Assembly (NCBI GenBank): GCA_029863645.1
Contig: JAOTVA010000002.1
Span: 1-64,000 of the forward strand
Length of the DNA stretch: 64,000 nucleotides
Origin: Gemmatimonadota bacterium
GTDB lineage: Bacteria; Gemmatimonadota; Gemmatimonadetes; Longimicrobiales; Gaopeijiaceae
Direction: 5' to 3'
The position numbers and the translations under genes are program-made. The notes under the pieces were generated by a model. The model searched no databases. It saw only the letters and a list, made by a program, of their open reading frames with translations, and was not told the DNA's origin. Positions 45,087 to 49,829 of the stretch are shown here, piece by piece. Positions within the stretch are counted from its first letter, which is position 1, and every line of letters begins with the position of its first letter.

Positions 45087-47045
45087 ATGAGCAGTGAATC
45101 AGGGTCGCTCGAAGCACTGTTGGACGAGAATCGACGATTTGCTCCCCCGCCTGGCTTTCGCGACAAGGCCAACTTCGGCGATCCAGCGGTTTACGAACGC
45201 GCGTCCAAGGACCGCGAGGCGTACTGGGCCGACTGGGCGGCGCAGCTGGACTGGTTCGAACCCTGGCATACCGTGCTCGAGTGGTCGCCGCCCTACGCCA
45301 AGTGGTTCCTGGGGGGGAAGCTCAACGTCTCGCACAACTGCTTGGACCGTCACGTCCAAGCGGGTCACGCCGACCGGAAGGCACTGATCTGGGAGGGCGA
45401 GCCCGGCGACACGCGGACGTTCACCTATGGCGAGCTCCTCGAGGAGGTCTGTCGGTTCTCGAACGCGCTCAAGGGGCTCGGCGTGGGGAAGGGTGACCGG
45501 GTCACCATCTACCTGCCCATGATCCCTGAAGCGGTGGTTGCCATGTTGGCGTGCACCCGCATCGGAGCGATCCACTCGGTGGTCTTCGGCGGGTTCAGCC
45601 CCGAGTCGCTCTCGGACCGAAACAACGATGCGCAGGCCAAAGTGCTCATCACCGCGGACGGGGGGTGGCGGCGGGGTGGGGTCGTCCCGTTGAAGGAGAA
45701 CGCCGATGAGGCGCTCAAGGCCTCCCCGACCATCGAACATTGTGTCGTCGTGCGGCGGGGTGGCGAGCTGAGCGAGCAGGTGGGCGCCACGCTCCAGGAG
45801 GGCAGGGATCACTGGTACCACGACCTGATCGCGGATGCCTCCACCGAGTGCGCCCCGGAGCAGATGGACGCCGAGGACACGATGTTCATCCTCTATACGT
45901 CGGGCACGACGGGGAAGCCGAAAGGCGTCGTCCACACGACGGGCGGATACCTGACGCAGGTCTACGCGACCACGAACGCAGTGTTCGATCTCCACGACGA
46001 CGACGTCTACTGGTGCACGGCAGACGTTGGCTGGATCACGGGGCACAGCTACATCGTCTACGGTCCGTTGGCGAACCGCGCCCAGGTGATGATGTACGAG
46101 GGTGCCCCTGACACGCCCGATCGTGGGCGCTTCTGGCAGCTCTGCGAGAAGTATGGAGTCACCGTCTTCTACACGGCGCCCACGGCGATCCGCGCCTTCG
46201 CGAAGTGGGGCGACGACTGGCCCGCGAAGTCCGACCTGTCGAAGCTACGGCTGCTCGGGACGGTGGGTGAGCCGATCAATCCCGAGGCCTGGATGTGGTA
46301 CCACAAGGTGATCGGCGGTGAGCGCTGCCCCATCGTCGACACGTGGTGGCAGACCGAGACGGGGGCCATCATGATCACGCCCCTCCCTGGCATCACCGAG
46401 ACGAAGCCAGGCACCGCTACGCGGCCCTTCCCGGGGATCGAAGCGAAGATCATGAACGACGCGGGGGAGGAGCGGTCGGCCGGCTACCTGGCCATCACGT
46501 CACCGTGGCCATCGATGCTGCGCACCGTCTGGGGCGACGACCAGCGCTTCAGGGACACCTACTGGTCGAAGTGGAAAGACACCTACTTCCCTGGGGACGG
46601 AGCGAAGCTGGACGACGACGGCTACTTCTGGATCTTGGGCCGCGTGGACGACGTGCTCAACGTCGCAGGGCACAGGATCGGCACGATGGAAGTCGAGAGC
46701 GCCCTGGTCGATCACCCGTCGGTTGCCGAGGCGGCTGTCGTGGGTAAGAAACACGAGATCAAGGGCGAGTCGATCGCGGCGTTCGTGACGCTCAAGGAGG
46801 GCTACGACGGGACAGACGAACTCCTTGCCGAGCTACGCGAGCACGTCGGCAAGAAGATCGGCGCGATCGCGAAGCCGGAGCTCATCGTCTTCAGCGCCGA
46901 CCTTCCAAAGACGCGATCCGGAAAGATTATGCGCAGGCTGCTGCGGGACATCGCGGAGGGTAGGGCCGTGGGCGATACGACGACCCTAGCGGATCCGGCG
47001 GTGGTCAAGCGGCTGCAGGAGCAGCACGAGGCGGAGGAGGGTTAG
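45087..47045 (+). CDS. acs: Acetyl-CoA synthetase
   Basis: [77 protein letters not shown]. Confidence 0.95.
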
Positions 47046-48430
47046 GACTGCTCCGGCGCGGGCTCGTGCCAGAACAGACCGCCGTGCTCGGAGATGCGTT
47101 CCAGGATCTGGTGCCGTGTGATCGCGCGCGTGATGCGACACCTGGGCGGTTCGTGTTCACTTCCCTCGTGTGCCATGTGCTTCACGTGGCAGTCACCCGC
47201 ACACGACCACTTCGCGAAACACCCTTCGCAATACGGGCGCTTGTCCACCGTCCGTGCCCGGAGGCGTGACAGGGCCACGGGGTCGAGTTGGACCCCTTTC
47301 CCGCCGGACAGGCGTCCGTAGAAGAAGTCCCCGGCGAGATCGCTACCATCCGAGAACGCCTCGTAGCATGCGGAAACGTCGCCGGTCGGGGTAAGTGCGA
47401 AGGAGTCCCGGGTCACCCCGCAGAAATGCCTCGTCACCATGCCGAACCGTGCCGCGGAAAAGTAGACGGTGCGCCCATACGCGCGTCCGATCGACTCGGC
47501 CTCGAGGAAGAGCTCGACGAAGCGGTCGGGATCGATGGCCGGGAGGTCAGAACCCCGGCCCTCCGGATACACGGGTTCGAGTTGGATTCGCTTCGCCGAG
47601 AAGTTGTCGCAGAGGTATTGCACTGCGACCGCGAGGAAGGGGAGTAGGGCCTCGGTGACGGTCAGGCGAAGCTGATAGTCGAATCCGACCCTGTCGAACA
47701 GCTCGAGTGTGCGCTCGATGCTGGCACTCGAGCCTCGCCCCGATGCCGAAGGGCGCTGCAGGTCGTGGAGGTGCGGCAATCCATCGAACGAAACGGAGGC
47801 TCCGTCCAGGTGTTCGGCGATCCAGGCGGCTTTGGCCTCGGGGATCGCCGCGTTCGTGGCGGTGAGGGCTCGGAGCGTGAGACCGTATCGGTCGGCCGCC
47901 GCAGCCGCGTACTCCCACGAGTCGGTCATGACGTCCCAATTGGCCGTGGCCTCTCCCCCGCCGTGGTATGCGACGGTGATCTGCTTTTCTCCCAGCGCCC
48001 GCGCGTTGTCGACGATGAAGTCGATACCCTGCAGGGCCGTCGACAAAGGCATGAACTCACCCGGGGTGTCGCCGGCGCTCGCGTAGCAGTACGTGCAGCG
48101 CAGGTTGCACGCCGTCGTCATGAAGAGCGTGACCGACGTGGGCCGGGGGTCACCGGTCACGTCCGGTTCCGGCAGTGCGTCGGGAGGGCCGTCGACGAGA
48201 CGGAGACTTCGGAGAAAGCCGACGAACTCGGCATCGACCGTCGAACGATCCCGAGCCTGACGCTTCGCTGCCAGGTCGGCCAGAGAGGACACCGCCGAGT
48301 CGTTGCAGAGGAATGCAGCGCGCTGGCGTGGCGCAAAAACGAGTTGACGTCCGCCGGGCCCGGGGATCACGAAGATCTCGGCCGTGAGCTCGGGCGCCCC
48401 GGATCGGACGTCGGTGTCAGCGGGGCTCAC
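47042..48430 (-). CDS. Radical SAM protein with SPASM domain, candidate peptide/protein maturase
   Basis: CNLRCTYC (CxxxCxxC); SPASM-like CX12GX4C ([19 protein letters not shown]) and CX2CX5CX3C ([14 protein letters not shown]); GTG start with GGAGG 8 nt upstream. Confidence 0.88.
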
Positions 48431-48434
48431 CCGA

Positions 48435-49829
48435 TTAACCTCCGTAGACGACGGGAATGCACGTGCACACGAAGTTGATGCTGCACGACGAGGAGCCACC
48501 CGCGGTTGGCGCTTGTCCTGAAACGCAGTTGCAGGTGCATTGCGCACCGGCTGGAATCGGCGAGCCACAGGGAAGCGTGTACCATACCTCCCTTCCTTGG
48601 GAGTCGATGGTGCTGTAGTAGCTGAGGCGCCCCCCTCGCGCCGTCGCTGGCTCGTCGAAGTAGCAGTTCTCGAAGCGTCCTGTCGCCAGGTCGTAAAGCC
48701 TGAGCGAACTGCCCAGACCAAAGGCCAGGTGGCGTCCGTCGGGAGACGGCGCGATCGTGACGAGACGCCCCCCCAGAAGACCGGGGATGCCTCCGCGGGA
48801 CGTTCCATCGGGCACGCTGTGGATCTGGAGCCCCTCTGCGCCGATCATGTACACGTCGCCGTTGGCATCGAGCGCGTGCGTGTAGAAGCCGCGGCCCGCC
48901 TGATTCGAGTCGACGCGTCGGATTACCTGACGTGTCGCGACGTCCCAGAACGTGATTGGCTCGGTCTCACTGCTCGTCACCAGTACGCTGCTGTCGGGCG
49001 TGAAGGTGATCCGCCGGATGAGGGTGTAATCGTTCGCGGGGTCCTCGAAGACGCCGGCCGGCTGCCCGTCGGGCACGGAGTAGGCGCGCACGACTGGCTG
49101 TCCTGGGTTGGAGCCATAGGGCGCCACCGCAAGCAACGACCCGTCGGGGCTGAGGTCCAGGCTCTGGAGGAATCCGGCGGAGACGTTGAAACTCGAGAGT
49201 TCCCCGCCGGTCGACGTATCGAGCATCGTAACGCGGGTCCCATCCGCATAGGCGAGCACGGACCCGTCTCCCGACAGGGCCAACGCGAACGAGCCTGCCG
49301 AGTTTTGCCTGACGTAGTCCCATTCGCTACGAATCGAGCCATCGGAAAGGTTCACGAGCGTGATCCTGCCTGGGAGCTGCGTCGCGACGAACCGACCGAG
49401 GGGATCGAATGCGATCGGAATGGCGAACCCGCTTCCGCTGTAGTTGAGCGACGTCACGAGACGCCCGGACGGGAAGGCCCAAAGCTTGAAGTGGTTGTCC
49501 CCGCGGCCCGTCCCCCCTGACGCGAGGAAGGCACCGTCCCGACTGAAGGCCAGGGCAGCGATCCCTTGGTGGGCTCCGACCTCGTCGCTGCAAAAAGTCA
49601 GGAGGTCGAAACCAGGGTCCCCGGGGTCGGTTGGGTCATCCCCGCTCGAGCACGCAGCGAGGAGGCCCCCCAGCCCGGCCGCGCTCGTGTACAAGAATCG
49701 TCGGCGGTCCACGGACCAGCCGAACACCTCGGAATGGAGGCGGTACAGGGCGGGCTCCTCGGGCGGATCCTCATTTGCGAAGCGGGCGAGGTTCTCGAGT
49801 CGGTACTCAGGTGCCCCGGGTCCGGTCAT
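48435..49829 (-). CDS. WD40/propeller-like Tat lipoprotein with Cys-rich C-terminal tail
   Basis: DRRRFLYTSAAGLGGLLAACSSG Tat/lipobox; repeats such as ALAFSRDGAFLASGG, SLDLSPDGSLLAVAP, TIAPSPDGRHLAFGL; tail CGSPIPAGAQCTCNCVSGQAPTAGGSSSCSINFVCTCIPVVYGG. Confidence 0.85.
   Translation of the reverse strand: MTGPGAPEYRLENLARFANEDPPEEPALYRLHSEVFGWSVDRRRFLYTSAAGLGGLLAACSSGDDPTDPGDPGFDLLTFCSDEVGAHQGIAALAFSRDGAFLASGGTGRGDNHFKLWAFPSGRLVTSLNYSGSGFAIPIAFDPLGRFVATQLPGRITLVNLSDGSIRSEWDYVRQNSAGSFALALSGDGSVLAYADGTRVTMLDTSTGGELSSFNVSAGFLQSLDLSPDGSLLAVAPYGSNPGQPVVRAYSVPDGQPAGVFEDPANDYTLIRRITFTPDSSVLVTSSETEPITFWDVATRQVIRRVDSNQAGRGFYTHALDANGDVYMIGAEGLQIHSVPDGTSRGGIPGLLGGRLVTIAPSPDGRHLAFGLGSSLRLYDLATGRFENCYFDEPATARGGRLSYYSTIDSQGREVWYTLPCGSPIPAGAQCTCNCVSGQAPTAGGSSSCSINFVCTCIPVVYGG
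48439..48443 (-). promoter_or_regulatory. Shine-Dalgarno GGAGG for the radical SAM gene, inside the last codons of the WD40 gene
   Basis: Minus strand GTC TAC GGA GGT TAA TCGG GTG: GGAGG, 8-nt spacer, GTG. Confidence 0.75.

Follow-up and report, generated by a model that had tools for sequence, protein, structure and literature searches.

The window analysed here, 64,000 nucleotides from a Gemmatimonadota bacterium (GenBank assembly GCA_029863645.1, contig JAOTVA010000002.1, positions 1 to 64,000), contains two adjacent genes, which code for a putatively exported WD40 beta-propeller protein and for an enzyme with radical S-adenosylmethionine (SAM) and SPASM domains. The two probably constitute a modification cassette, in which the enzyme cross-links the cysteine-rich tail of the propeller protein. 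The pairing of the enzyme with the tail and the bipartite leader/core architecture of the substrate are well supported by sequence comparison. The cassette comprises (Tat, twin-arginine translocation):

47042..49829, minus strand: two-gene cassette, absent at the same site in four genomes of the same genus
48435..49829, minus strand: WD40 beta-propeller and probable Tat lipoprotein with a Cys-rich tail, the proposed substrate (464 amino acids)
47042..48430, minus strand: radical SAM/SPASM maturase (462 amino acids, GTG start; PF04055 above its cut-off)

The cysteine-rich tail

The tail consists of two cysteine modules:

48513..48581, minus strand: tail core YTLPCGSPIPAGAQCTCNCVSGQ (E 1.5e-14 in the tail-profile search)
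48450..48485, minus strand: second Cys module CSINFVCTCIPV, a degenerate CTC repeat that aligns with ICTCNxVCTCIPV of homologues

The 464-residue protein contains ten cysteines (hypergeometric P = 4e-6 for their clustering in the tail). Seven of them are placed within the last 44 residues, as the preliminary description of this DNA had stated in noting a tail unlike the propeller body. Sixteen proteins, encoded by 15 genomes of the phyla Gemmatimonadota, Acidobacteriota and Chloroflexota, were found to contain the tail; the relatives are mostly metagenome-assembled genomes (MAGs). When a 23-residue tail profile was first run against four genomes and records, true matches lay at about E 1e-13 and the background above 0.2; E-values are per genome. 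The profile then recovered additional carriers among the Acidobacteriota. The consensus YTLPCGSPIPxGAxCxCNCVxGt is followed by a variable Gly/Pro/Ser-rich linker and then by CTC[ND]x[VI] repeats. The tail is kept far more strictly than the propeller: the 23-residue core of the window protein is 73-86% identical to the canonical cores and 41% identical to the degenerate core of G423, with 23-33% identity between bodies. The tails that were tested matched no model of Pfam or NCBIfam, even at E 10.

Co-occurrence of the tail and the enzyme

The same radical SAM/SPASM enzyme is encoded in 14 of the 15 genomes with a tail and, in 13 of the 15, is no more than 3 kb away from the tail gene, which may precede or follow it. 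This is the arrangement expected of a ranthipeptide, where a Cys-rich precursor is encoded beside its maturase. Among 396 Acidobacteriota genomes, the enzyme (called at E <1e-60) is present in ten and the canonical tail in seven, all seven belonging to those ten (hypergeometric P of 4e-13). The 386 genomes without the enzyme gave no canonical tail; they were screened with the canonical tail profile only, and degenerate tails could escape it. Among 395 Gemmatimonadota genomes, neither the tail nor a close relative of the enzyme was found outside that of the window. A 39-aa frame in G114 (E 3.5e-4) was judged to be noise, and G228 was rejected as a carrier of tail or enzyme.

The partners vary in form and order. 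The three enzyme-bearing Acidobacteriota genomes not among the seven are G423, G469 and G444. G423 encodes a WD40-Tat protein with a degenerate tail, the gene of which overlaps the enzyme gene, and in G469 a standalone CxC-repeat precursor with CSCHEVCTCDAVCSCNAECSC adjoins the enzyme. The tailed WD40-Tat protein of G444 is located on another contig, unlinked to the enzyme. A Bryobacterales MAG (Acidobacteriota) contains the pair in reverse order; the tail there reads TLPCGSPIPAGATCVCNCVPGT, and a further copy reads PCTAQPVPPGYECTCNCIPGRY. A Chlorohelix plasmid (Chloroflexota) encodes a WD40 and a non-WD40 protein, both tailed, beside three radical SAM genes, and a 98-aa neighbouring gene product matches PqqD at E 0.025 only. 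Tail-like matches on Acidiphilium and Caballeronia plasmids (E 1 and 4) were discarded as noise, and a phage collection searched with the Chlorohelix tail returned matches at E >=3 only.

Several other radical SAM genes are accompanied by small proteins. On a Methylocystis plasmid (L045 6194-6580), such a gene precedes that of a 128-aa protein crowded with CxC motifs, apparently a stand-alone substrate of a related kind. In G412 (L097 5748-6041), the reading frame of a short peptide ending in LCSCVCINDEQCCGCLLQ overlaps a second radical SAM gene, which is a distant one. Next to these radical SAM genes, small proteins whose N-terminus contains an RRxF-like motif are found repeatedly (L093 5371-6039, L094 5691-6224, L069 4938-5480 and L098 458-1078). 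Plasmids of Edwardsiella and Salmonella (L043 6187-6366; L044 6085-6258) contain a radical SAM gene, a 57-59-aa peptide ending in FLCCRGG...GGxW, an ABC transporter and an S8 protease; with this other kind of peptide, they were set aside as a separate cluster resembling those of ribosomally synthesized and post-translationally modified peptides (RiPPs).

The radical SAM/SPASM enzyme

The following elements are recognized in the enzyme:

48086..48109, minus strand: CNLRCTYC, the radical SAM [4Fe-4S] cluster motif (residues 108-115; C108, C112 and C115 invariant)
47138..47422, minus strand: SPASM region for the auxiliary clusters, residues C337-C431 (each of its seven cysteines invariant in 11 homologues)
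48191..48382, minus strand: N-terminal domain of the maturase (about residues 17-80), a possible RRE-like recognition domain suggested by the predicted structure

PF04055 scores 37.1 bits in the 462-residue protein (cut-off 29.5), which identifies a radical SAM domain. The CNLRCTYC motif and the exact SPASM pattern, both reported in the preliminary description, are borne out by conservation, as all of these cysteines are invariant in 11 homologues. The SPASM set is complete, with C337-X12-G-X4-C355, C401-X2-C404-X5-C410-X3-C414 and C431. An AlphaFold model, computed from a two-sequence alignment and with a mean predicted local distance difference test (pLDDT) score of 45.6, places three strands and then helices at the N-terminus (pLDDT <50), where an RRE-like recognition domain is possible.

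The best NCBIfam models for the enzyme describe nif11, PapB, QhpD and SCIFF maturases, and every listed family scores below its cut-off: TIGR04064 (nif11 peptide maturase), the highest-scoring model, 114.2 bits against 518.7; NF047865 (PapB) 105 against 340; TIGR03906 (QhpD), among the top three, 99.1 against 453; and TIGR03974 (SCIFF/CteB) 91.8 against 425. The nearest solved structure by sequence in the PDB is that of CteB (phmmer 1.8e-18, profile E 2e-46). The possibility that the enzyme belongs to an unrelated family with its own substrate was also considered. The anaerobic sulfatase maturase model (TIGR03942) was rejected at 39.9 bits against 349.45, and no sulfatase gene was found in the cassette or among the flanking genes scanned. 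The flanks, which encode acetyl-CoA synthetase (ACS), a hexapeptide transferase and IMPDH, contain no neighbours of a qhp operon. The arrangement of enzyme and tail corresponds to no named family.

Phylogenetic analysis of 43 radical SAM proteins places the window enzyme inside a clade of five tail-linked enzymes with support of 100/99. Eleven tail-linked enzymes cluster with weaker support (86/69), and the G469 enzyme is unplaced. Viral contigs contain 56 distant radical SAM relatives, 21-44% identical over parts of their length. The conservation of the tail, its co-occurrence with the enzyme and the enzyme clade all support the earlier proposal that the tail is the substrate of this enzyme, which by these sequence comparisons is very likely.

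The propeller protein and its leader

The N-terminal part of the substrate contains two motifs:

49683..49760, minus strand: leader motif EEPALYRLHSEVFGWSVDRRRFLYTS (PxhYxhx6WxhxRR, at a constant distance from the Tat arginines)
49650..49706, minus strand: twin-Arg signal RRRFLYTSAAGLGGLLAAC with lipobox (RRRF at residues 42-45, LAAC at residues 57-60)

PF00400 scores 35.8 bits in the protein (cut-off 27), in line with a WD40-type propeller. Both elements of the putative twin-Arg lipoprotein leader described earlier, RRRF and LAAC, are present; TIGR01409 scores 13.4 bits, under its cut-off of 16.7. The leader motif PxhY/FxhxxxxxxWxhxRR, also written PExYxVx6WxLxRR, directly precedes the Tat arginines at fixed spacing in 15 of the 16 tailed proteins, with the Trp at a relaxed position in a few. 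A profile of this leader recovered the tailed protein in each of six genomes (E 2e-12 to 2e-9) and is not matched by ordinary Tat signals. Its sole further match below 0.03 in these genomes is a 77-aa open reading frame in G444 (L193 / L206, G444:C4:82862), which contains the leader and Tat motif without body or tail and is apparently a relic of another tailed protein.

The tailed proteins comprise 392-1026 residues, and the body between leader and core is nearly always a propeller (15 of 16 proteins). They are not the short precursor peptides with separate leader and core that define ranthipeptides. The WD40 and the non-WD40 tailed proteins of Chlorohelix are 72% identical in the N-terminus and 78% in the tail core, and unrelated in between; by this comparison, leader and core move together and the body is exchangeable. 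The leader is a plausible docking site for the enzyme, and its stretch EEPALYRLHSEVFGW and the PCGSPIPAG block of the tail are candidates for the pieces that are recognized.

Variants of the tail

In the G837 tail, long GCSCVxD octapeptide repeats take the place of the CTC repeats. At L177 6227-7804 and L176 1684-3330, the tails are long runs of the octapeptide GC[SG]C[VD]xD[TSYV], which may represent a form of the system with repeated cores.

Two tailed WD40 proteins, those of G642 and G698, contain a Peptidase_S74 domain directly after the CTC repeats (Pfam E ~1e-9). The catalytic residues described for Peptidase_S74 are a Ser and a Lys at +5 (PMC3742443), and this Ser/Lys pair is present as SDRxxK in the tailed S74 proteins at L065 4718-7798 and L068 5857-7647. 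After the predicted self-cleavage, the propeller would end in the tail as its C-terminus.

All five tailed genomes with a gene for a B-type radical SAM enzyme have tails ending in YW[HY]P[NT], whereas such ends are absent from the eight tailed genomes where that enzyme was not found (P 8e-4, uncorrected for ancestry). These ends suggest a second modification, and that its chemistry is of the cyclophane type is a guess. The loci concerned are L041, L066, L069, L174 and G444 (L095, L180), some of which also contain additional radical SAM genes and a small gene with weak likeness to PqqD.

Gene arrangement and the empty site

The genes are co-oriented with a 4-nt gap. The GTG of the maturase starts at the fifth base past the TAA of the WD40 gene. 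As noted previously, its ribosome-binding site is located inside the upstream gene:

48439..48443, minus strand: Shine-Dalgarno GGAGG for the maturase, within the last (Gly-Gly) codons of the WD40 gene, 8 nt upstream of the GTG

At the other end, the stop codon of the maturase overlaps that of the convergent ACS gene. In the four same-genus genomes, the ACS and hexapeptide-transferase genes are 15-43 bp apart, and in the window exactly two genes intervene. Where contigs reach, synteny around the site extends from S13 peptidase/FUR to MoaC; the contig of G399 begins inside ACS. Contamination of the MAG was ruled out, as the flanking genes are 53-90% identical to, and syntenic with, those of the same-genus genomes. 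In G034, also of the same genus, an additional stretch of about 300 bp interrupts the ACS gene (L112 8950-11216).

Since the cassette is absent from the rest of the sampled phylum, its acquisition is a simpler explanation than loss in four relatives. Its GC content and that at third codon positions (GC3) equal those of the neighbouring genes, hence the transfer was not recent or the donor was of similar base composition. Joint transfer of a horizontally moving two-gene unit is well supported by these comparisons.

Proposed mechanism

The WD40 protein is proposed to consist of three functional pieces, an N-terminal leader joined to the Tat signal, the propeller and the C-terminal Cys-rich core. 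The enzyme, translated directly behind it, would bind the nascent or folded substrate, probably docking via the leader and the PCGSPIPxG block. The 5'-deoxyadenosyl radical would then join the sulfurs of the CxC cysteines to non-alpha carbons of nearby Thr, Asn or Asp residues. The cross-links would form in the cytoplasm, and the folded, modified protein would then be exported by Tat and, in this species, lipid-anchored. The outcome would be a full-size propeller showing a rigid thioether-linked tail outside the cytoplasm, where its role may be in binding, adhesion, antagonism or redox chemistry.

As the Tat pathway carries folded proteins and QhpD acts before export, modification in the cytoplasm followed by Tat export would be coherent. 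Radical SAM enzymes that group with QhpD form links from sulfur to non-alpha carbons, which are Cys-Asp for PapB, Cys-Thr for CteB and Cys-Asn for streptococcal enzymes (PMC11002830). The acceptors of QhpD are Asp/Glu, and its substrate QhpC receives the cross-links while still in the cytoplasm, prior to export (PMC7876137). Thr, Asn and Asp occur inside or just after the CxC motifs of the tails and therefore match the known acceptors of these enzymes. The thioether chemistry, the order of events and the retention of the tail are inferred. By analogy, a ranthipeptide-type thioether is somewhat favoured as the link. The tail is likely to remain on the propeller. The chances are about even that these systems form a class of protein-borne ranthipeptides, mobile leader-Tat-body-core cassettes that place multiple C-terminal thioethers on exported propellers of full size; in some lineages, another enzyme would add an aromatic (cyclophane-type) link at YW[HY]P[NT] ends.

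Alternative explanations

Some observations weigh against such a cassette. A Pfam search for a PqqD/RRE domain in the N-terminus of the enzyme gave no match, the Bryobacterales leader is degenerate (one of the 16 tailed proteins), and the G915 MAG has a tail gene with no enzyme detected, the gene lying 1.7 kb from a contig end. The chemistry rests on distant family resemblance, as the exact arrangement has no characterised homologue, and CxC motifs are also classic metal ligands. In an unlikely alternative, the tail stays unmodified and forms a metal-binding or disulfide module, and the enzyme acts on another residue (Ser/Cys oxidation, as by the anaerobic sulfatase-maturating enzyme anSME) or serves as an assembly factor only. 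The CTCxxxCTC and GCSCVxD repeats do resemble metallothionein-like ligand sets, and some radical SAM proteins mature metal sites. However, the enzyme is far from sulfatase maturases, the cassette has no sulfatase, the nearest models of the enzyme are thioether-forming maturases, and the conserved Thr/Asn/Asp residues beside the cysteines fit ranthipeptide acceptors.

Slightly more credible, and still improbable, is a tail that acts as a RiPP core and is released by cleavage once modified, the propeller being an oversized carrier and the product a small secreted peptide. Related enzymes adjoin small CxC-rich precursors (G469, Methylocystis L045, G412 L097), and the tandem octapeptide repeats of G837 resemble repeated RiPP cores. 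Yet the transferred cassette is limited to two genes and includes neither a protease nor an ABC exporter, the propeller body is retained in 15 of the 16 tailed proteins, and Tat export implies folded proteins. The extra domain found after the tail is Peptidase_S74, the predicted self-cleavage of which would keep the tail on the propeller. That an unrelated propeller and radical SAM gene are adjacent by accident is in practice refuted by their proximity in 13 of the 15 genomes, spread over three phyla, by the P of 4e-13 and by the joint insertion at one site, the unlinked pair of G444 and the undetected enzyme of G915 notwithstanding.

Implications and relation to known systems

To our knowledge, RiPP-type radical chemistry acts almost entirely on short peptides, with QhpC as the protein-scale exception. 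In the proposed cassette, leader, export signal, swappable folded body and core form one polypeptide, and the enzyme-substrate pair moves between phyla as a two-gene unit. If the tail is cross-linked, many overlooked modified proteins are predicted in uncultured bacteria, a set of "WD40 repeat protein" annotations is accounted for, and a ready-made system for macrocycles on exported proteins is at hand. If these are indeed protein-borne ranthipeptides, they would give bacteria a genetically encoded means of presenting rigid macrocycles outside the cytoplasm, mounted on a folded scaffold. The open-access literature gave nothing relevant on the tail strings or on a WD40 protein combined with a radical SAM RiPP, and a description elsewhere is possible.

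The nif11-like maturases provide the top-scoring model (TIGR04064), but there is no nif11 leader here. Peptidase_S74 intramolecular chaperones are known mostly from phage tailspikes and MYRF, and the domain is absent from the window protein. The YW[HY]P[NT] end, with its aromatic-X-Asn-like sequence, resembles triceptides (three-residue cyclophanes) in the subset of homologues with B-type radical SAM genes; this is an association only, and the window protein lacks that end.

The ranthipeptide systems CteB/SCIFF (thermocellin) and PapB (freyrasin) are similar in enzyme architecture, in the Cys-rich substrate encoded next door and in the Thr, Asn or Asp by Cys as candidate acceptors. Their known substrates, however, are short precursor peptides without a Tat signal or folded body, and the motif found here is CxC[ND]/CxCxxD rather than CX3D or that of SCIFF. 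QhpC differs in being a small subunit with a cleaved 28-residue leader, exported by an ABC transporter and assembled into a three-subunit enzyme with heme and cysteine tryptophylquinone (CTQ), none of which is seen here. The likeness to QhpC/QhpD lies in the reaction itself, where a SPASM radical SAM enzyme acts on a protein subunit that is still in the cytoplasm and joins its cysteines to non-alpha carbons, prior to export.

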